Shown: one piece after another, positions 5,938 to 16,226 of the stretch
How positions within the stretch are numbered: the first letter of the stretch is position 1
Layout of the letters: every line of letters starts with the position of its first letter
IMG/VR virus record: IMGVR_UViG_3300030333_005378
Location: 42,741 to 63,356 of that record
Strand: one strand, 5' to 3'
Length of the DNA stretch: 20,616 nt
Source: a virus
Translations under genes and position numbers: made by a program
The notes under the pieces: generated by a model
Databases searched by the model: none
What the model saw: only the letters and a program-made list of their open reading frames with translations
What the model was told of the DNA's origin: nothing

Positions 5938-6136
5938 CTAAAATTCTCTCCAATATATTTTTCATATGAACCAATTCTTGCATATTAACTCTAATTCCTT
6001 TACTAGTTGCCTTTCCATCTTTATACCATCTAATGTCTACGACATCAATATTCCAATATTTACCCTTTTCAATAATAACTTCATCTATTGCACTTCGGGC
6101 AATTCGGCCTCTAATTTCAGAATCCTTTAATCCCAT
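5894..6136 (-). CDS. PC4/Sub1-like ssDNA-binding protein
   Basis: 80 residues. Residues about 19-66 match the transcriptional coactivator p15 (PC4) fold: a strand VDIRWYKDGKA, a second strand with the hallmark KGIRVN (KGISL in eukaryotic PC4), then a helix QELVHMKNILERI. PC4-family proteins are small dimers that bind single-stranded DNA and act in transcription, replication or repair. It starts within the last codons of groEL (10-base overlap) behind a perfect AAGGAGG ribosome-binding site and is followed by the histone-fold gene. The N-terminal 18 residues are charged, unlike the Ser-rich tail of eukaryotic PC4. Confidence 0.75.
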   Translation of the reverse strand: MGLKDSEIRGRIARSAIDEVIIEKGKYWNIDVVDIRWYKDGKATSKGIRVNMQELVHMKNILERILDGEHTRNRATDKEE

Positions 6137-7650
6137 TCAGGTTCCTCCTTTTCTGGAACTAAAACATCAGTAGTTAAAACAAGTCCCGCAATAGAAGCCG
6201 CAGTTAATACTGCATTCTTTGTAACCTTTACAGGGTCAATAATTCCTGCATCCAATAAATTCTCATATTGATTTTTGTTGGCATTAAAACCTACACCATC
6301 TTTAAGACGCTCAAAATCTAAAGCAATTCCGGCATTAGAGGCAATAACCTTAGCGGGTGCGCTAAATGCTGAATAAAAAGAAGTGTCTGATTTATCCCAA
6401 TCATAAAGAGCCATTCCTCCACCAACAACAATTCCTTCTTGAACTGCACATTTAGTGGCATTAAGAGCATCATCTAATCTTTCTTTTCTTTCTCTTAATT
6501 CTGTTTCAGTAGCCGCACCAACCTTTACAACTGCTACGCCGCCTGTTAATTTACCCATTCTTGTTAAAATTTTCTCAGCAAACCAATCATTACTTTGACT
6601 ATCCAATTGAGTTCTCAATGAAGTAACTCTATCACTAATATCAGTGGGGTTAGCATTATCATTAATCAATAAAGTATGGGTTCTATCAATTTTAATTTTA
6701 GTAGCCGTGCCTAAATCTTCTAATTTTGCTTTAGTAATATCTTGGCCTACATCAGCATTAAATACCTTTCCACCTAATAGAGCAGAAACGTCCTTTAGAA
6801 TCTCTACTTGGTCATCTCCCCATTCGGGGGCGCGAATAGCACACGCTATAATTCGTCTATCTATAATATTACCCAACAAATTAGTTAAAGCATTTCCTTC
6901 AAGGTCTTTTGATATAATCAAAAGTGGCTTTTGTTCATGTGCCGCAATATTCATTACGGGTAGCAAATCATTAATATGATTAATGGATGCGTTAGTCATT
7001 AAAACCAAAGCATTATCTACTTCCCAATAACCTTCATCTGGCTTATTAATCATAAAGTGAGTAAAATACCCTCTATCCAATTGCATTCCATCAATTACAC
7101 TATAAGTAGTGTCGGCATTTTGTCCATCTTCAACAGAAATAACACCGTCTTTACCAATTTCCTCAATAATATCAGCAATTAATAATCCCAATTCAGCATC
7201 ATTATTTGCGGCAATAGTGGCTACATTTTCTAAATCACCACGACCATTAACAGGCTTTGATATTGCATCAAGATGTTCTACTACATCATTAGTAATAATG
7301 TCTAATTCCTTTTTTAGAGTTACAGGGTCCATACCTGCATCTTTAATATCCTTTAATCCCTTTCTACATAATTCTCTTGCTAGAATAATAGAGGTTGTAG
7401 TCCCATCTCCAGATTTATTCTGTGCTTGTGATGCTACTTCTTGAACCAATTCAACACCCATTTGAATATAGGGGTCATCAGACCAAACTGCCTTAGCAAT
7501 AGTTACACCGTCATTAATTATAACGGGTTTTTTATTTTGCTTAATGACAACAGTTTTTGCCTTTGGTCCCAATGTTCCAATAACTGTATCTGCTACTAAA
7601 TCTACACCTTGCATTAATTTTTCTCTTGCTTCTTCTCCATGTAAAATCAT
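6127..7650 (-). CDS. groEL: Group I chaperonin GroEL (HSP60)
   Basis: 507 residues. ATP-driven folding chamber that works with GroES. Seen: TLGPKAKTVVI (about 26-36), NDGVTIAK (46-53), the nucleotide-binding GDGTTT (81-86), the apical-domain segment DRGYFTHFMINKP, and GGVAVVKVGAATE followed by LDDALNATK containing the catalytic Asp equivalent to GroEL Asp398. These are GroEL (group I) features rather than thermosome. It is shorter than the usual 540-550: the equatorial segment after VVGGGMALYDW is reduced, and the Gly-Gly-Met tail is missing, replaced by an acidic end EKEEPEWD. The ATG overlaps the groES stop (ATGA), behind GGAGAGTGA. It probably folds virion or replication proteins. Confidence 0.96.
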   Translation of the reverse strand: MILHGEEAREKLMQGVDLVADTVIGTLGPKAKTVVIKQNKKPVIINDGVTIAKAVWSDDPYIQMGVELVQEVASQAQNKSGDGTTTSIILARELCRKGLKDIKDAGMDPVTLKKELDIITNDVVEHLDAISKPVNGRGDLENVATIAANNDAELGLLIADIIEEIGKDGVISVEDGQNADTTYSVIDGMQLDRGYFTHFMINKPDEGYWEVDNALVLMTNASINHINDLLPVMNIAAHEQKPLLIISKDLEGNALTNLLGNIIDRRIIACAIRAPEWGDDQVEILKDVSALLGGKVFNADVGQDITKAKLEDLGTATKIKIDRTHTLLINDNANPTDISDRVTSLRTQLDSQSNDWFAEKILTRMGKLTGGVAVVKVGAATETELRERKERLDDALNATKCAVQEGIVVGGGMALYDWDKSDTSFYSAFSAPAKVIASNAGIALDFERLKDGVGFNANKNQYENLLDAGIIDPVKVTKNAVLTAASIAGLVLTTDVLVPEKEEPEWD

Positions 7651-7901
7651 TCAATCACTCTCCAAAAAACTTCTCTCCAATTAACTGCAATATAACCTTC
7701 AAGTTCTTCTACTGTTCTAACCTGAGAATATACTACTTCTTCACCAACTAAACTCTTAAAGGATTCAGGGCATTCCTTACCAACAGAAATAACTGTCCCG
7801 CTATTTCCATCAGTTACTATAAATCCACTACTAGTCTTTTCTTGCTTTTCTAAAATTACCCATTCGCCTTGCGCTTCTAATATTTTTACTACTTCAATCA
7901 T
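7647..7901 (-). CDS. groES: GroES-like co-chaperonin
   Basis: 84 residues from ATG 7901, chosen because GGTGG lies 5 bases upstream; in-frame starts up to 7934 exist. Seen: the GroES strand EWVILEKQE, a mobile-loop-like KTSSGFIVTD, where FIV stands in the place of the GroEL-binding IVL tripeptide, the GTVISVG turn, then GEEVVYSQ, and EGYIAVNWREVFWRVIE replacing the usual EYLIMRESDILAIV end. Divergent, but the order is that of GroES, and it overlaps groEL, the typical pairing. The mobile loop is short and its sequence may be adapted to the viral GroEL. Confidence 0.82.
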   Translation of the reverse strand: MIEVVKILEAQGEWVILEKQEKTSSGFIVTDGNSGTVISVGKECPESFKSLVGEEVVYSQVRTVEELEGYIAVNWREVFWRVIE

Positions 7902-8031
7902 CATAACCACCTGATTCATTATGAACATAACCACAACTATTACAATGCCAAAAATACCAAAACTCTACGGTATGGCCATTATAGGCTCTATCATGTTCTT
8001 CTTTCATTTCATCTCCACATCTAGGACACAT
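7894..8031 (-). CDS. 45-residue zinc-ribbon protein
   Basis: Two CxxCG knuckles (MCPRCGDEM at 2-6 and HCNSCGYVH at 30-34) separated by about 25 residues form a complete four-cysteine zinc ribbon. The ATG overlaps the stop of the preceding 33-residue gene by one base, and the end overlaps the groES start. A nucleic-acid or protein adaptor role is typical of such ribbons, but the partner is unknown. Confidence 0.6.
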   Translation of the reverse strand: MCPRCGDEMKEEHDRAYNGHTVEFWYFWHCNSCGYVHNESGGYDD

Positions 8032-8132: not shown

Positions 8133-8293
8133 TCTTCCTCACCTTCTACTTCTTCCAACATACTCAATGCAATAGCATAAATAATATCATGCTTTTCTTC
8201 TGGCCATTCTTTCTTCAAAATATCAAAAAGAATTACTGAATCCTTATCACTTACTTTATTTGCTACTGCCGTTACTAAATCTACATTCAACAT
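8129..8293 (-). CDS. 54-residue acidic helical protein
   Basis: Reads MLNVDLVTAVANKVSDKD, then two predicted helices, and ends EVEGEEE. The start overlaps the stop of the JAMM gene (TAATG) behind GGAGGAAG. The GEEE ending comes from a one-base variant of the recurrent coupling junction. Function unknown. Confidence 0.6.
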   Translation of the reverse strand: MLNVDLVTAVANKVSDKDSVILFDILKKEWPEEKHDIIYAIALSMLEEVEGEEE

Positions 8294-8790
8294 TACTCTT
8301 CCTCCATAAAATCATCAAGAGTCATTTGATTATCGGCCCAATCTGGAATATCAACCTTCTTGTAAAATACAGTATGTTCTTCTCCCTTAATCCAACACAT
8401 TGATTCATTATCCCCAAGAACAATTGCCATATTCATCACAGGTTCCCATGTTCTAATTGTTCTCCAATCAGTCCCACTAAAATATGCCGCACCAAATGGG
8501 TGAGTATGAATCCAACATTCAATAGGTAACTTCATTTTAACTCCACTTTCAAGTGTGGGCATTTCTTTAAACCAAACAAATCCTGGGTCACCTGCTGAAA
8601 TAAATAAATTCATTCTTCCATCAACAACCACTTGAACTTCTCGCGGAATATCAAATGCAGTTAAACTCATTTCCCAAATAGTATCAAGAAACAAATCACT
8701 TTCAAAATCAAATTCCGAATTGCACCAAGCATCTCTAATTTGGTCTTCCCAATCTGCTAACATTACTACAATATTTTCACTTGAAATCAT
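8293..8790 (-). CDS. JAMM/MPN+ metalloprotease with C-terminal PIP-like motif
   Basis: 165 residues. Zinc isopeptidase of the JAB family, which removes or matures ubiquitin-like proteins. Seen: the complete JAMM signature HTHPFGAAYFSGTD (His95, His97, Ser105, Asp108) with plausible catalytic Glu upstream (Glu40 or Glu51), so it should be active. After the core, the tail QMTLDDFM (155-162) fits the PCNA-interacting consensus Q-x-x-L-x-x-F-x, lacking only the second aromatic. The same window has an E1-like gene about 600 bp upstream in transcription order and a Ubl gene about 7.2 kb upstream, so it could trim the Ubl precursor or remove it from targets, possibly at the sliding clamp. The start overlaps the upstream stop (ATGA), with GGTGATT before it. 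Phage tail-type JAB proteins usually carry an NlpC domain, absent here. Confidence 0.88.
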   Translation of the reverse strand: MISSENIVVMLADWEDQIRDAWCNSEFDFESDLFLDTIWEMSLTAFDIPREVQVVVDGRMNLFISAGDPGFVWFKEMPTLESGVKMKLPIECWIHTHPFGAAYFSGTDWRTIRTWEPVMNMAIVLGDNESMCWIKGEEHTVFYKKVDIPDWADNQMTLDDFMEEE

Positions 8791-9382: not shown

Positions 9383-9943
9383 TCACACATTCACAACCTT
9401 AAAATCTGCTACATCATCACCTGCAAAATATCGGTGAATCCATTGTGCGCCCATTCCTGCCGCAATAATATGTGAAAAATGTTGAGCATTTGCTGAACCA
9501 TCCCATGAATCACCTTGACAACTAAATGAACCTTCAGGTCCGGCCAATAATACATCATGTTTATTTCTATCTGCACGATATGAAATATATGCACAATTTC
9601 TACCTTGCGCTCTCAAATCTAACCATGCGCAATTTTCACGGTATAGTAATCGTCTAACATCTAAATTATCTGCACAACATACCACTAAATCATACCCCCA
9701 AATTTGCTTTGCTGTCAAAATTGGATACTTTATGTAACCAACGGTGTTATGCTTTCGGGCAGTTTGAACGGCCTTATTTTCACCAATATCACTACCATTA
9801 CAATACTGATAAGTCATATTTTTATTTTCATATTTATCGGGGTCTGCTACAACAATATCATAACATTCAGTTCGATTTAACACTTCAATTAAATACGACC
9901 CTATTCCACCTGCGCCTATAACTAATATTTTATTCTTCTTCAT
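9383..9943 (-). CDS. E1/ThiF/MoeB-like Ubl-activating enzyme
   Basis: 186 residues; the family adenylates the C-terminal glycine of a ubiquitin-like protein. Seen: the Rossmann ATP loop VIGAGGIGSY (8-17), acidic strand end VVADPDKYENKN (31-42, where E1 proteins have DxDxVxxxN), GENKA (54-58) carrying the conserved Lys, and CCADNLDVRRLL (89-100), the usual E1 NxxxR-like helix. A Cys in GSFSCQGDS (Cys142) is a candidate catalytic or thioester cysteine. Shorter than MoeB/ThiF (about 250) and without an obvious CxxC zinc pair, it resembles the compact ThiF proteins of PRTRC plasmid and phage systems. It overlaps the end of the TFB gene and lies close to the JAMM gene. A sulfur-transfer role (thiamine/molybdopterin type) is the main alternative. 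Confidence 0.85.
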   Translation of the reverse strand: MKKNKILVIGAGGIGSYLIEVLNRTECYDIVVADPDKYENKNMTYQYCNGSDIGENKAVQTARKHNTVGYIKYPILTAKQIWGYDLVVCCADNLDVRRLLYRENCAWLDLRAQGRNCAYISYRADRNKHDVLLAGPEGSFSCQGDSWDGSANAQHFSHIIAAGMGAQWIHRYFAGDDVADFKVVNV

Positions 9944-10910
9944 TTCTTCTCACACCATTTACTATATCTTCTACTCTATAATATCCATTTTCAAAATTCT
10001 TTTTATCTATTCCCATATGCTTTAATATGGTATTATAATTATTTCTAAGAGTTACTTCTGTAATATTACAAGTTTCAGAAATATCTCTTTGAGTTCTAAA
10101 GGAACCGTTTACTGTTAATTTAATTCCAATATACATGATTGCCGCAGTAAACCCGTGTCCCATTTGTAAACATAACGCTTCACCCATTTGTTCAATAGGA
10201 ATAGAAACAGATAAAATGTTATTAATTGTTCTTCTATCCATTTCCATTTTAGTTGCATATTTTTCAATATCTTGGGCTAAATTTCTTTGAGAAAGAACCC
10301 AAGGTTTTCTAAATGCTGAAGCAACCTTTCTTGCTAATTTTGCTACTTGACGAGGATGCGCCCCATTTTCTCTACAAATTTCTTCAATAGACATTCTAAT
10401 GCCATTATCTTTATATGTAAAATATGTAATTGCGGCGGCTCTAACTTCTAAAGGTATTCCTGCCATCTGTCTTTCTTTTAACATTTTTTTGTAATTCCAC
10501 ACTACTTGGTCTACTAAAGAAGGAGGGGCTTGTAAATCAGAAAGTAACATTCTACAAACTACAATGCCCTTCTGTTGAGAACGAACATTACTTGGTATTG
10601 AACGCTTATCATAATTTCTTAATTTTCTGCCCAATTTACTTCTATCAAATGAACCATCATAATTTCTAGTTCCTACTTGAGAACCCAAAAGAAAACTTTG
10701 CTTGTTTGGCTCATAAACTCTTTGTGAAAGTGGGTCGCCTGCTTTTTCTCTACCTGAAGTAGTTTCTTCAAGAATGTCTTCTGCTAAAACCAATCCACAA
10801 TCTTGACAAAATATCTCTCCTCTAAAGGAGTCAGTTTTTAAATTTCGACTATTACATTCATGACATTTTACAATGTCTTCTACATCTTCAACTCTTTTAA
10901 TATTTCTCAT
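9930..10910 (-). CDS. tfb: Archaeal transcription factor B (TFB/TFIIB)
   Basis: 326 residues. Bridges TBP-bound promoter DNA and RNA polymerase. Seen: the N-terminal zinc ribbon CHEC...CQDCG (Cys16, 19, 35, 38), the B-reader/linker region (about 45-108, including EKAGDPLSQR), and two cyclin repeats (about 110-205 and 210-300), the second with a helix-turn-helix QRDISETCNITEVTLRNNY that would read the BRE. Full length for the family (about 300-340). ATG 10910 is chosen over 10946 because GGAGAGTGA sits just before it and the N-terminus then matches TFB. A virus-encoded TFB could redirect host polymerase to viral promoters. It ends NEEE, overlapping the E1-like gene by 14 bases. Confidence 0.95.
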   Translation of the reverse strand: MRNIKRVEDVEDIVKCHECNSRNLKTDSFRGEIFCQDCGLVLAEDILEETTSGREKAGDPLSQRVYEPNKQSFLLGSQVGTRNYDGSFDRSKLGRKLRNYDKRSIPSNVRSQQKGIVVCRMLLSDLQAPPSLVDQVVWNYKKMLKERQMAGIPLEVRAAAITYFTYKDNGIRMSIEEICRENGAHPRQVAKLARKVASAFRKPWVLSQRNLAQDIEKYATKMEMDRRTINNILSVSIPIEQMGEALCLQMGHGFTAAIMYIGIKLTVNGSFRTQRDISETCNITEVTLRNNYNTILKHMGIDKKNFENGYYRVEDIVNGVRRNEEE

Positions 10911-11058
10911 AATCTTCACTCTCCGTAATTTTAATAATTGTAGCATCTCTACTATTATTTCTTAACATTGAAATTAATTCATTTATATCTTCTAAAGTAT
11001 TATCCCATATATTTTCACTATCGCAATATACCTCTACTATAACTATCTTTTTAATCAC
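10897..11058 (-). CDS. 53-residue hypothetical protein (GTG start)
   Basis: Starts with GTG inside the last codons of the 412-residue gene, behind GGTGTGATG, and overlaps the TFB start by 14 bases, so it fills an otherwise empty 140-base gap exactly. It begins with a hydrophobic strand IKKIVIVEVY, then an acidic helix (NTLEDINELISMLRN) and a second strand ATIIKITE: a small alpha/beta fold. There is a faint resemblance to the 103-residue gene at 12980-13291 (VIVEL... WD... I..MNQL). Function unknown. Confidence 0.5.
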   Translation of the reverse strand: MIKKIVIVEVYCDSENIWDNTLEDINELISMLRNNSRDATIIKITESEDYEKY

Positions 11059-12289
11059 GCTTCATCACACCTTCTAAATCCTTATGACAAAAGGCATCCA
11101 TATCTAATCGTTGGTCAAATTGGCCCTCAACGTGACCCTCATTCAAATAACGAGCGACAGTATTTACAATTTTAACCGTAATTGTATCATTTAATAATGC
11201 TAATGCTCTTGCGGCAAATTGGTCACCAACGGATGAATTTTTTGTCATGTTATCAATACAAATTGGCCCATCTAACCAACAGTCTTGTATTTTAGTTTTA
11301 TTGGTTGATTGACTTTCTAATGTTCCGCTCTTCTTAACAATAAAGGTTGAAACGGCCTGAATTTCAGATTTAAACTGGTTATCAGTAATAACCCAATCTG
11401 CTAACTTTCCTCTAACCATAATGGCTTTAATTTGTTCCTTATTAGATTCTCCTAAAGAAAACCATATAACCTTCATTCGCCCTTCATACTGCTTTTCCAA
11501 ATCCTTTACAAGTTGAACCGCTCTACTTTGAACAATATCATCTGTTCTATTTTGTTGTAGAAAAGCAATCATCATTTTTAATTGGCCTTCAGTTGGTTCT
11601 TCTTTCATTAATTTAACCCACAATTTCTTAGGGGATAAAAATGCCCAAGAACCTCTTTGAATGCCCTTCCAATAATAATTCATATAAACATTTAGATTTT
11701 TTACTGAAATAGGGGCCCAAACACCATCAGAAATTTCCATAGCACATTCATCATCTCCAATCATTCTAACATTAAATCTAACGTCTACCTTTTCTCCTTT
11801 AATATACCAATGAAAAGGTGCGCGATTTTCTAAAGCATATGACACATTTGCAGGTAGGCGCAAATGATGTAACATATACTTATACAATTGGTCTTTATCT
11901 TGATTAAAACAAGATTTATAAATTGCTCTTGCCATAGCAGTAATAATTGTTTCCTTTGATTGCATTTCTCCCATTAAATGATAACGGGTTCCAATTTTAC
12001 TCAACATCATAGTAAAGGGGTTATCCACATCACCTATACTAATATAAGCACTAAAATCTTTTATTCCCTTTTCCTTTAGTTTTAATTTAACCACTAACCA
12101 ATCATAAATTGCTGAAACTGTTGGGTCATGCTTATGTCTATATTGTGATGGATAGACACTTTGATTTCCCGTATCCCAAATTGTTCTTCTACGACGATAA
12201 CTAGGCTCATATTCAATGTTACTCTTAAAATTAACATATGTTGAATGATAAGCATTGGTATCGTCTGCTGTATAAATCTTAAATTCCAT
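11051..12289 (-). CDS. Hypothetical protein, 412 residues
   Basis: Not recognised. An N-terminal region with a basic patch YRRRRTIWD (about 31-39), a mid region rich in strands (about 150-205), an aromatic stretch VYMNYYWKGIQRGSWAFL (about 205-222), and a C-terminal part with KVIWFSLGES and a helix ending LEGVMKRD. It has no signal peptide, membrane helix, Walker motif or cysteine cluster. Located between the RNR block and TFB. Its size and lack of overlap with known enzymes would suit a virus-specific structural or DNA-processing protein, but nothing in the sequence decides this. AGGACGAG precedes the ATG. Confidence 0.75.
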   Translation of the reverse strand: MEFKIYTADDTNAYHSTYVNFKSNIEYEPSYRRRRTIWDTGNQSVYPSQYRHKHDPTVSAIYDWLVVKLKLKEKGIKDFSAYISIGDVDNPFTMMLSKIGTRYHLMGEMQSKETIITAMARAIYKSCFNQDKDQLYKYMLHHLRLPANVSYALENRAPFHWYIKGEKVDVRFNVRMIGDDECAMEISDGVWAPISVKNLNVYMNYYWKGIQRGSWAFLSPKKLWVKLMKEEPTEGQLKMMIAFLQQNRTDDIVQSRAVQLVKDLEKQYEGRMKVIWFSLGESNKEQIKAIMVRGKLADWVITDNQFKSEIQAVSTFIVKKSGTLESQSTNKTKIQDCWLDGPICIDNMTKNSSVGDQFAARALALLNDTITVKIVNTVARYLNEGHVEGQFDQRLDMDAFCHKDLEGVMKRD

Positions 12290-12290
12290 A

Positions 12291-12467
12291 TTAACTCGTC
12301 CTATATTTTTTACTTTTGTATTTCTCTAAACATTTTTTATGCATTTCCATTTTACATTCTTCAGGGTCATACAATGGTCCACCACAAATTCTGCATCTAG
12401 TAGCAATTCGCCTCATATAAGAAGTTCTACTTTCTACATAATCTGGGTTTCTACTCATTTTACTCAT
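12291..12467 (-). CDS. 58-residue zinc-finger protein
   Basis: A CRICGGPL knuckle (Cys25, Cys28) followed by Cys38, His43 and Cys46 (ECKMEMHKKC) gives a compact treble-clef-like zinc site of the type seen in many small phage proteins. The tail is basic (KYKSKKYRTS). It starts in the last codons of the preceding gene (in-frame ATGs at 12467 and 12458; AGGAAG lies upstream) and ends two bases before the 412-residue gene. It is likely a nucleic-acid-binding adaptor. Confidence 0.6.
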   Translation of the reverse strand: MSKMSRNPDYVESRTSYMRRIATRCRICGGPLYDPEECKMEMHKKCLEKYKSKKYRTS

Positions 12468-13291: not shown

Positions 13292-15445
13292 TTAACCACA
13301 CTCGGAATGTCCACATTTATCACAGGTAGCACAACCACCTTGAAATACCATATTACCATCATTACATGAATGACATAATTCGGTATAGGGGTCATCGCTT
13401 CTTGATGCAAACTCTTTTAACACATTTGAAATTTGTGCAACAGTCCCTTTCATTGAACCTTTTGATTTTTCTAATTGTTCAATCAATTTATCCAATGGAA
13501 TATGATAGCGTAAACCAACTGAAATAAGTCTTGAAATACTATCCAACTGTTCACGACGTTGGGTATGTTCTATTGTTGGTCTATTTAGATAAGGATAGTT
13601 TACAAACATCTCAATAGGTTTATTCTCATAATGTGATACTGTAATGTAAATATATTCATCATCAAGACCTTCAGCCGGTAATCTAAATCTAACTGCTTCA
13701 CTAATATCATCCAAATCCTTTGGTTGTAAACTATTCTTTTCGGAAGTATTCAAAACCTGTATAGATTTTGAGCCATCTCTATAAATCGTTACACCTTTAC
13801 AATTTGAATCCCAAGCCAACATATATGCTCGCTTAACATCATCAACAGTAACACTATTATCCATATTAATAGTCTTACTAATTCCTGAATCAACCCATTT
13901 TTGAAATGCGGCTTGAACATTAATATGTGCATCAACATCTAATTCAGTAGCCGACACAAATACTTCAGGGTATTGTGCCGCTAATGGTGTAGTAATCCAT
14001 GTTCCATCGGGATTTGATTGGTCCACTCTAAATACCTTATCAGCATAATGTGGTTCAATACCCGTAGAACAATCTGCAATATACCCAATGCTACCTGTTG
14101 GTGCAATTGTTGTAATACAAATATTTCTTATTCCTGTCTTTTTATACTTCTTACGTGTTTCGGGAGGTAATTTACGACCATCAATAAGTGGCTCATAATC
14201 ACCATATTCCCAACCCTTAAATGCACCAAATTGTTCAGCATATTCTACTGATTCAACAAATGTCCATTTGTAAATAAACTTCATTACTTCTTCACCAAAG
14301 GCTAAAGCATCTTCTTCACCATATCGCATTCCCATTAGAATACACGCATCAGCATATCCCATTACACCTATACCTATGTTTCTATACGCACGACTATGCT
14401 TCTCAATTTCAGGAATAGGATAAACATTCTCATCAATTACTGCTTCACCTAAACGATAAGCATACTTAATTGCATCTTGAAGTCTATTCCAATCCATTTT
14501 ACCCTTAGAAACAAAATTACCCAAGTTTAATGCAACAAGATTACATGAACCATAATCAGGCAACGGTTGTTCACCACAGGGATTAGTTGCGCGTATAGTC
14601 AAATCGTCACCGGATTCTTTCAAGTATTCAGGGTGAGCCAAATAATTTGCTGGCATTTGTTTATTAATTCTATCAATAAAAATAATTCCGGGGTCTGCAC
14701 ATTCCCACGCTGATTGGGCAATTAAGTCCCAAATATCACGATAAGTATAATATGTTCTAGTATCTCGATTTTGTTCTATATCCATAACTACTTCATCAGT
14801 TTCACAATCAATAATATATTGATAATCTTTCCAACTAAATAAACAAATATCATTTGGATATTTCTGAAGATTCGCCATAAATTCATCTGTCACACTAACA
14901 CTAATATTAAAGTTAGTTAATGTGCCATCATCTGCTGTTTTCATTTTAATAAACTTAATAATATCAGGGTGGTCAATTCGTAGTTCGGCCATATTAGCCC
15001 CACGACGCTTTCCACCTTGCTTAATTTCTTGTGTGTTTGCATCAATAACTCTCATAAATGAAAGTGGTCCTGATGCAACTTGATTAGTTCCACCAACAGA
15101 CGCGTTTTCAGGTCTAAGTCTGCTAAAATCAAATCCGGTCCCACCTCCATATTTATGAATTAAAGCGGTATGTTTAGTAGTATCAAAAATTTCTTCTAAA
15201 CTATCTTTCATTGGCAATACATAACACGCCGAAAGATTCCCTTTACCTGTTCCTGCATTAAATAATGTAGGACTGTTAGGTAGAAAATCACAATGCAACA
15301 AATAATTAAAAAATGCCGCTTGGTCTTCCGGTGTTTTTCCTAAAGAGGCAACTCTTTGACAAACTTGAGGCCATGTATTTTCGTCTGCTGTATAATATCT
15401 TTGTTTAAGTAGGTTTTGAACCCACGGTTTTTCATCTGGTAACAT
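13292..15445 (-). CDS. nrdJ: Class II (adenosylcobalamin-dependent) ribonucleotide reductase
   Basis: 717 residues; reduces ribonucleotides to deoxyribonucleotides using a B12-derived thiyl radical. Seen: NSPTLFNAG (57-65), the redox Cys74 in NLSACYVLP, GGTGFDFSRLRP, the radical site NPCGEQPL (Asn288, Cys290, Glu292), partner redox Cys301 in GSCNL, and APTGSIG (448-454). The C-terminus has CHSC...CATCDKCG cysteines that supply a zinc site and reductant exchange. No N-terminal ATP cone is present, and no small-subunit or activase gene is nearby, consistent with class II. ATG 15445 is chosen over a GTG at 15454 because AAGGTG lies about 7 bases before it. It lies second in the operon after the candidate promoter at 15891-15904. 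Confidence 0.95.
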   Translation of the reverse strand: MLPDEKPWVQNLLKQRYYTADENTWPQVCQRVASLGKTPEDQAAFFNYLLHCDFLPNSPTLFNAGTGKGNLSACYVLPMKDSLEEIFDTTKHTALIHKYGGGTGFDFSRLRPENASVGGTNQVASGPLSFMRVIDANTQEIKQGGKRRGANMAELRIDHPDIIKFIKMKTADDGTLTNFNISVSVTDEFMANLQKYPNDICLFSWKDYQYIIDCETDEVVMDIEQNRDTRTYYTYRDIWDLIAQSAWECADPGIIFIDRINKQMPANYLAHPEYLKESGDDLTIRATNPCGEQPLPDYGSCNLVALNLGNFVSKGKMDWNRLQDAIKYAYRLGEAVIDENVYPIPEIEKHSRAYRNIGIGVMGYADACILMGMRYGEEDALAFGEEVMKFIYKWTFVESVEYAEQFGAFKGWEYGDYEPLIDGRKLPPETRKKYKKTGIRNICITTIAPTGSIGYIADCSTGIEPHYADKVFRVDQSNPDGTWITTPLAAQYPEVFVSATELDVDAHINVQAAFQKWVDSGISKTINMDNSVTVDDVKRAYMLAWDSNCKGVTIYRDGSKSIQVLNTSEKNSLQPKDLDDISEAVRFRLPAEGLDDEYIYITVSHYENKPIEMFVNYPYLNRPTIEHTQRREQLDSISRLISVGLRYHIPLDKLIEQLEKSKGSMKGTVAQISNVLKEFASRSDDPYTELCHSCNDGNMVFQGGCATCDKCGHSECG

Positions 15446-15447
15446 TT

Positions 15448-15858
15448 TTAACACCTTATTGTTGTTCTAAATGGACATTGGTTTAGTTCAGTAAATGTTG
15501 TTACCCATTCACCATTAAACTTAGTTATTGTCCATTCTTTTTCTTCTTCAAAATTCCAACTTTCTATATCTTTCATTCCATCAATCCCAAATCTATCATA
15601 TATTCCCCATCCCGTGAGGAATCTTTCATTTCTATAATGAATAATAGTTTTTCCGACAGACTTAATTATAGCCTTATCGGAACGTGCGAGCAAAGCACCT
15701 TCAGGGTAAAAATCTGCTCTAAAGGGAACAAAGGAATGTTCCCATTTATCTCCTTCTTTACAATAATCCATCAAACTATGACAATAATCCCAATTAAAGG
15801 TTTGGAGGATTAATTTTAGCGTAACTTCATTAAAGAAGTTCTTTCCATCTGGTTCCAT
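15448..15858 (-). CDS. Hypothetical protein, 136 residues
   Basis: First gene after the terminator/promoter region and directly upstream of RNR. A good AAGGTGAT ribosome-binding site precedes the ATG. Aromatic-rich, apparently beta-rich C-terminal half (EWTITKFNGEWVTTFTEL), with Cys26, Cys33 and two Cys near the end. No family recognised. Adjacency suggests co-expression with RNR. Confidence 0.65.
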   Translation of the reverse strand: MEPDGKNFFNEVTLKLILQTFNWDYCHSLMDYCKEGDKWEHSFVPFRADFYPEGALLARSDKAIIKSVGKTIIHYRNERFLTGWGIYDRFGIDGMKDIESWNFEEEKEWTITKFNGEWVTTFTELNQCPFRTTIRC

Positions 15859-15926: not shown

Positions 15927-15972
15927 AAAAAAAGGAGGGAACAGATAATATAATCAAATACTACCTGTTCCC
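15927..15972 (-). terminator. Hairpin plus T7 transcription terminator
   Basis: In the minus-strand transcript GGGAACAGGTA (15972-15962) pairs with TATCTGTTCCC (15947-15937), 11 bp with one G-U, around a 14-base AT-rich loop. CTCC and seven T (15933-15927) follow. It lies about 50 bases after the Ubl stop and is the only clear terminator in the window. It separates the transcript ending with the Ubl gene from the RNR transcript. Confidence 0.7.
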
Positions 15973-16007
15973 CCCAATCGGTCGAGTTTGACCTAAAGGG
16001 AGAAAGT

Positions 16008-16034
16008 AGCCAACTTAGCCACTTAAGCCCAACC
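16008..16034. repeat. Three imperfect 9-bp tandem units at the Ubl stop codon
   Basis: On the plus strand AGCCAACTT, AGCCACTTA and AGCCCAACC follow one another. The repeat covers the last codons and stop of the Ubl gene. It is short and imperfect and may be chance. Confidence 0.35.
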
Positions 16035-16226
16035 GCCGACAATGGCGGGGGTCAAATCAATAGAAGCAATATTGTCCCAATCAAGGGTATTCACTTCTTC
16101 TCTTGAAACCATTTCACCATCTACAAACACCCAATGTGTCGGGTGGTCGTTAATTTGTTCAATAGCCTCATTCATTGTTACTTCTAATTCAGTATGTCCT
16201 GTTTCGTTCAAAATTCTCAATTTCAT
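16023..16226 (-). CDS. Ubiquitin/MoaD-like beta-grasp protein with masked Gly-Gly
   Basis: 67 residues. It begins with a ubiquitin-like hairpin, strand MKLRILNETG and strand HTELEVTM, followed by the helix NEAIEQIND, strand HWVFVDGEMV, then ASIDLTPAIVGGWA. The end matches the MoaD/Ubl tail pattern (hydrophobic-x-P-x-x-x-GG), but two residues, Trp-Ala, follow the Gly64-Gly65. A classical Ubl is activated only with GG at the end, so a protease such as the JAMM protein encoded in this window would need to trim it. The length suits a minimal beta-grasp protein. AGGAAGTGA precedes the ATG. It is the last gene before the terminator and is not adjacent to the E1-like gene. Alternatives: a beta-grasp protein with no conjugation role, since the GG could be coincidental. 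Confidence 0.65.
   Translation of the reverse strand: MKLRILNETGHTELEVTMNEAIEQINDHPTHWVFVDGEMVSREEVNTLDWDNIASIDLTPAIVGGWA

Follow-up and report, generated by a model that had tools for sequence, protein, structure and literature searches.

A ubiquitin-like protein with a short, variable tail after Gly-Gly, and the genes that accompany it, in magrovirus-like viruses

A small viral protein ending in Gly-Gly-Trp-Ala raises the question of whether its last two residues are a built-in lock, to be cut off before the protein can be activated. E1 enzymes need a free Gly-Gly end, and proteases of the JAMM family can cut after Gly-Gly. An earlier note on this DNA had proposed an ordered pathway in which a JAMM protein of the same genome removes the Trp-Ala, after which activation and transfer follow. 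The stretch analysed here, called the window below, comprises 20,616 nucleotides (positions 42,741 to 63,356) of a 63-kb IMG/VR virus record, IMGVR_UViG_3300030333_005378.

The ubiquitin-like gene and its C-terminal end

The gene occupies 16023-16226 on the minus strand, starts with ATG and encodes a protein of 67 amino acids, MKLRILNETGHTELEVTMNEAIEQINDHPTHWVFVDGEMVSREEVNTLDWDNIASIDLTPAIVGGWA, followed by TAA. Its C-terminus reads TPAIVGGWA, with the stop codon at 16023-16025, the Trp-Ala tail at 16026-16031, the Gly-Gly codons at 16032-16037 and the preceding Val at 16038-16040, all on the minus strand, so that 16023-16040 spells exactly V-G-G-W-A-stop, as the earlier note had read it. An AlphaFold2 model built with 37 homologues (mean pLDDT 79) showed a beta-grasp arrangement of beta, beta, alpha, beta, beta, short helix and beta, with the Gly-Gly end unstructured. 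Foldseek placed ubiquitins at the top for this model with probabilities of 0.98-0.99 and modest E-values, and gave a TM score of 0.59 against TtuB. The best rows of VIA-align, with moderate Z scores of 4.9-5.7, comprised MoaD (5.7), TtuB (5.2-5.3), ISG15, a SAMP2-JAMM complex, UFM1 and a bacterial Ubl-deubiquitinase complex, with some further beta-grasp chains and protein L in between; gaps below 1 in these Z scores are too small to separate MoaD from ubiquitin. Because the fold matches coincide with a Gly-Gly end and an E1 partner, the 67-aa protein is very likely a ubiquitin-like protein (Ubl).

Sequence searches with the Ubl returned little. Scans against Pfam, PHROGs and NCBIfam gave no meaningful match, the PADLOC models did not recognise the protein, the PRTRC and Prok_Ub models did not match it, the Ubl profile, searched against PDB sequences, retrieved no Ubl, and tblastn against annotated phage genomes found nothing. 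Among the prokaryote genomes searched, matches occurred only in two contigs (L058 and L059) of a bacterial MAG labelled Altibacter, which are probably mis-binned virus contigs. Directly 3' of the gene, pattern matching detected a terminator-like hairpin with a T run (15934-15975, minus strand), which suggests that the Ubl transcript may end separately and be expressed apart from the downstream genes.

Relatives were collected in three scans. The first IMG/VR scan yielded 56 homologues, all with Gly-Gly; a profile scan yielded 203 relatives, the best 80 of which were taken; and a scan with the E1 described below yielded the 80 loci taken, in whose selection the Ubl played no part. Among the 103 distinct Ubls thus examined, drawn in the case of the profile scan from the best 80 of its 203 relatives, Gly-Gly stood at the same place in every one (103/103), followed by no residue in 14, one in 31 and two in 58. 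The earlier note had suggested aligning homologues around the Gly-Gly, and had held that homologues lacking it or carrying long C-terminal extensions would speak against the idea; neither kind occurred (0/103 each), and no tail exceeded two residues. Furthermore, a Ubl was present in 46/46 of the E1-fetched loci with at least 7.5 kb of upstream DNA, and all Ubls in the E1-fetched loci ended in Gly-Gly plus zero to two residues, providing a check that is independent of the Ubl because these loci were fetched through the E1 gene.

The tails themselves are biased in composition, not conserved. The 103 distinct Ubls carried 32 different tails, among which the Trp-Ala of the window is unusual. The final residue was Tyr, Leu, Cys or Phe in 69/89 tails (78%), whereas 12% of the other long ORFs in the same loci end in one of these. 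The enrichment is approximately six-fold, over a rough background that takes in all long ORFs and over-represents Glu, and the sequences compared, being related, are not independent samples. When each distinct tail was counted once, 21/32 ended in one of these four residues (P = 3e-12). In two-residue tails, the first residue was Ser or Asn in 37/58. The length limit and the composition bias fit the action of a protease that favours a particular site, though other causes of a preferred C-terminus are possible. Leu in the tails was always encoded by CTT or CTC, more than one base from any stop codon, so the tail pattern is not simply the result of point mutation of stop codons; drift of the stop codon as the origin of the tails is disfavoured by these codons and by the enrichment of the four residues. 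On a quick, unrooted tree built from E1 and JAMM with the Ubl left out, in which branches are long and some placements unsure, there were at least six changes between the tailed and tail-less states, 17 changes of tail length and 56 changes of the exact tail.

Among the long ORFs that served as background, 32% end in Glu, and many genes have Glu-Glu-Glu or a similar run before the stop codon, for example that at 8293-8790; perhaps these ends overlap the GAGGA ribosome-binding sites of the next genes.

A gene set kept with the Ubl gene

All same-strand ORFs from the Ubl to the JAMM, with margins of 1.5 kb, were clustered into families. Only five families were present in all 153 loci with enough flanking DNA, namely the Ubl, a 412-aa protein, a TFIIB-like transcription factor (TFB), an E1 and a JAMM, with constant strand and order; some contigs are represented twice among the 153 loci, of which 111 have distinct E1 and JAMM sequences. 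The TFB gene (9930-10946, minus strand) always lies between the 412-aa gene and the E1 gene. The distance from the Ubl to E1 and JAMM is 6-7 kb in the window and about 2.5-9 kb in relatives, so the set forms no tight operon. The remaining genes between Ubl and JAMM vary among loci, and no sulfurtransferase, rhodanese or cysteine synthase is among the families present in all 153 loci. This five-gene viral set, with its candidate E2, is a new finding and a larger one than the tail itself. In the window, a class II-like ribonucleotide reductase with a TSCPD domain (13292-15454, minus strand), one of the variable genes, separates the Ubl gene from the 412-aa gene, an insertion shared by only a few related viruses.

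The E1, which the earlier note's scheme demanded, was found downstream of the Ubl and on its strand in 153/153 loci, as was the JAMM. In the window the E1 gene (9383-9943, minus strand) has a start codon overlapping the TFB stop codon and encodes a minimal E1/ThiF adenylyltransferase of 186 aa, shorter than MoeB, that matches PF00899 (2.3e-15). The family keeps G10-x-G-G-x-G, D34, D36, K57 and D92 without variation, among them the Asp and Lys residues at the ATP site. The N-x-x-R-Q motif lacks its Arg, with Tyr in 43/46 and Asn in 3/46 sequences, and retains Asn42 and Gln46. Cys142, in an (F/Y)SCQ context, the residue considered as a possible catalytic Cys beyond the adenylation core, is also invariant, and the region around it fails to align with known E1s. 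The family profile matched UBA5, MccB, Uba4, MoeB and Cap2; among the PADLOC models only the E1 parts of E1-E2 (CBASS) models were matched, and PRTRC_ThiF gave a weak 33.7 bits, well short of the 144.75 bits that this model requires. The 186-aa protein is thus a plausible yet unusual E1.

The JAMM/MPN+ metalloprotease (8293-8790, minus strand; 165 aa) carries E51 and H95-x-H97-x7-S105-x2-D108. The H-x-H-x7-S-x2-D motif was present in 127/127 distinct JAMM sequences, and Glu51, His95, His97, Ser105 and Asp108 were invariant in the 46/46 that were aligned. The JAMM that the earlier note had placed in the same genome is therefore present, with its catalytic residues intact in every sequence. The protein scored 18.8 bits against Pfam Prok-JAB, below the gathering score of 25, and the family profile matched the structures of AMSH-LP, Sst2 and CsRpn11.

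The 412-aa protein (11051-12289, minus strand) has a putatively UBC-like C-terminal domain at approximately residues 247-399 and an invariant Cys344, in GPIC344IDN in the window. Cys344 occurred in 125/125 family sequences, in the context G-P-[IFV]-C-[IV]-D-N; around it G341 was kept in 117/125, Ile or Val at 343 in 115/125 and Ile or Val at 345 in 125/125, in agreement with the pattern G-x-[IV]-C-[ILV]. Other invariant polar residues of the family are D298, W299, Q311, D356, Q357, R361 and N367. In the AlphaFold2 model (pLDDT 86), the C-terminal domain runs helix, four strands, Cys and two helices, which is the order of E2s, and Cys344 is predicted to lie where E2s have their cysteine, after the fourth strand and ahead of the second helix. 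With residues 247-399, the first 14 rows of VIA-align were E2s or the same-fold RWD domain, aligned over their entire length, at Z scores of only 4.1-5.2 that are compatible with chance by the tool's own warning, E2s being numerous in the PDB. Foldseek alone gave no significant match of the model to E2/UBC folds. When the family profile was aligned locally with those of five human E2s, Cys344 and the next helix paired with the catalytic Cys and its helix (P 0.011), and 2/300 column shuffles scored as high; this match came from the default local mode, an earlier run with other settings gave no useful alignment, and it is one positive among a few tries. In the same comparison the positive control, Cap2 against human E2, worked, and that of the 412-aa family with Cap2 E2 domains was not significant, though its weak best alignment again paired the cysteines.

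The conserved H-P-N before the Cys is absent from the alignment of the 412-aa family; the classical E2 His is missing in some bacterial E2s too. Neither the Pfam nor the PDB profile scan of the family gave an E2 match, a BFVD search with the model returned only three matches, all relatives of the same family, and tblastn against annotated phage genomes returned none. We consider the protein a candidate E2, slightly more probably an E2 than not, because several weak lines point the same way and because the gene is strictly linked with Ubl, E1 and JAMM.

Upstream of the 412-aa gene, at a distance of 1 nt, lies a gene (12291-12458, minus strand) that encodes a small C2HC zinc-finger protein (C-x2-C...H-x2-C). 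It occurs in 118/153 loci and is missing from part of the tree, and all four ligands are kept in 72/72 distinct sequences. The protein is no RING and is possibly an optional accessory or targeting part.

Maturation, removal and the competing readings

The loci can be sorted by the tail of their Ubl, and JAMM and E1 accompany two-residue tails (92 loci), one-residue tails (38) and tail-less ends (23) without exception. The JAMM is intact in each of the 23 scorable tail-less loci. The elements of the cleavage-first pathway suggested by the earlier note, namely the Gly-Gly, the short tail, the E1 and the JAMM, were thus all found; as a general rule the pathway was not supported. Since the tail is absent from 14/103 Ubls, its presence has switched at least six times and the JAMM is kept in 23/23 tail-less loci, cleavage before activation cannot be obligatory, nor can trimming be the sole reason for the conservation of the JAMM. 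A maturation step is plausible, yet appears optional across the Ubl family, with deconjugation the likelier conserved job of the JAMM and trimming a second one. That the tail blocks activation and is removed by the JAMM would have good precedent in Caldiarchaeum, whose CsRpn11 cuts the CsUb precursor after Gly-Gly and also deconjugates (PMC6043591), and prokaryotic JABs have been proposed to act in both processing and removal (Iyer et al.; PMC1779556).

Considering the invariance of the Gly-Gly, the length and composition of the tails, the intact E1 and JAMM motifs and the strict co-occurrence and order of the genes, we infer, with a probability of roughly 0.6, that a magrovirus-like archaeal virus carries its own Ubl modification set of Ubl, E1, probable E2 and a JAMM that both deconjugates and trims. 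The missing Arg and the shortness of the E1, the low E2 scores and absent H-P-N of the 412-aa protein, the sub-threshold Pfam score of the JAMM and the distance of the Ubl gene from E1 and JAMM weigh against this reading. The minimal E1 may adenylate the Gly-Gly end of the Ubl, and the 412-aa protein, probably an E2, may receive the Ubl through Cys344 and transfer it to targets, perhaps host or virion proteins. A Ubl with a tail of one or two residues, such as the Trp-Ala of the window, would be trimmed after Gly-Gly before use by the E1, most probably by the viral JAMM; a Ubl with no tail would skip this step. The main conserved task of the JAMM would be to cut the Ubl off its targets again, which would account for its retention both with and without a tail. 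An extended version, in which the core genes form a complete and self-sufficient Ubl cycle with a new, very diverged E2 family and a tail repeatedly gained and lost while the JAMM persists, retagging host or virion proteins, is more tentative and falls a little short of an even chance.

The closest rival to this conjugation reading is a sulfur carrier system, in which the Ubl would be of the MoaD/ThiS/TtuB/CysO type, the E1 would make a Gly-Gly thiocarboxylate with no protein conjugation, and the JAMM would release the Ubl end, either by removing the tail or by splitting off a small-molecule adduct. MoaD and TtuB are indeed among the best structural matches, the E1 is small and ThiF/MoeB-like, and trimming of a two-residue tail by a JAMM is known from thioquinolobactin synthesis, in which the Cys-Phe tail after the Gly-Gly of QbsE is removed by QbsD. 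However, MoaD and ubiquitin are left unseparated by the Z scores, the enzymes of sulfur transfer sought among the constant families are missing, and the constant partner carries its invariant Cys within a putatively UBC-like domain although a sulfur carrier needs no E2, making this reading rather unlikely. It is also unlikely that a host peptidase, such as a host JAMM or carboxypeptidase, trims the tail and leaves the viral JAMM to act on conjugates only. The wide variation of the tail residues and the persistence of the JAMM in tail-less viruses, which makes its conservation independent of the tail, would agree with such a division of labour, but the composition of the tails is strongly biased, and an Rpn11 enzyme from archaea is known to do both jobs, trimming and deconjugation (PMC6043591). 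Improbable, finally, is a tail that is a neutral leftover, tolerated by an E1 that accepts one or two extra residues or produced by a drifting stop codon. The repeated gain and loss on the tree suits it, as do the Tyr, Cys and Gln codons, which lie one base from stops; the Leu codons do not, nor do the enrichment of the four final residues and the limit of two residues in all 103 distinct sequences.

The 412-aa protein may, instead of an E2, be an unrelated conserved viral enzyme, with the E1 transferring the Ubl directly. We lean against this reading while regarding it as a serious possibility: SAMP modification in archaea is known to proceed without an E2, the fold and profile scores of the 412-aa protein are weak, and its many invariant polar residues besides Cys344 are unusual for an E2. 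Against it stand the strict linkage of the gene with Ubl, E1 and JAMM, the place of the Cys as in E2s and the GxIC[IV]D motif.

Several known systems resemble the viral set in part. In Caldiarchaeum subterraneum, CsUb and CsRpn11 offer a precursor Ubl, a JAMM cut after Gly-Gly, deconjugation, and an E1 and an E2 alongside (PMC6043591); CsUb, however, has a nine-residue tail and a cellular operon, whereas the viral tails have zero to two residues, the viral E1 has 186 aa and the viral E2 is at best very diverged. The SAMP-UbaA-JAMM1 system of Haloferax and Pyrococcus likewise combines a euryarchaeal Gly-Gly Ubl, a ThiF/MoeB-type E1 and a JAMM deconjugase (PMC4443979), and SAMP2 is among the structural matches of the viral Ubl, but that system is cellular and has neither a dedicated E2 nor a conserved 412-aa partner. 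The parts list is the same in bacterial Ubl-E2-E1-JAB operons (Iyer et al. 2006, rows 6a-6e; Bil, Bub, CBASS Cap2/Cap3), among which BilC matures BilA (PMC11354881). Those operons have tight gene order or fusions, whereas the viral parts are separate genes, dispersed across about 3-9 kb, with TFB in between. The PRTRC system is a ThiF-JAB-Ubl (C protein) trio on mobile elements, which the viral set recalls through the weak PRTRC_ThiF match of its E1. The viral tails -CY, -AF, -RF and -NC resemble the Cys-Phe of QbsE, which differs in being a sulfur carrier in a biosynthetic operon.

The carrier virus

The gene set of the virus includes TFB, an RFC-type clamp loader (RFC-S), an ATP-dependent ligase, PolB, GroEL and GroES. 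PolB, RFC-S, an ATP-dependent ligase, TFB and GroEL/GroES are also the set by which ICTV describes the magroviruses of Poseidoniales (PMC10768690), and by this likeness of gene set the viruses studied here look like magroviruses of Poseidoniales. Searches of the virus's own genome with PF04127 and a terminase model returned nothing useful. A ubiquitin-like gene is unmentioned in the magrovirus texts searched, including two ICTV profiles, though an earlier mention elsewhere is possible. If the proposed reading is true, protein-tagging machinery of their own is part of the core genes of viruses whose archaeal hosts are among the most abundant in the ocean, and a diverged viral E2 would bear on the origin of ubiquitin systems. 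The mixture of Ubls with and without a tail, each accompanied by an intact JAMM, furthermore forms a natural test of whether the JAMM is conserved for maturation or for removal.

In the window, a bacterial-type GroEL (6127-7650, minus strand) overlaps a short, very diverged GroES (7647-7934, minus strand), a pair found here in an archaeal virus and missing from this position in many related viruses. The PolB of the same virus (G000:C1:36328-37651, minus strand) matches in two pieces, the second of which contains two TGA codons; a PolB split into NTD and CTD has been described for Aoguangviridae.
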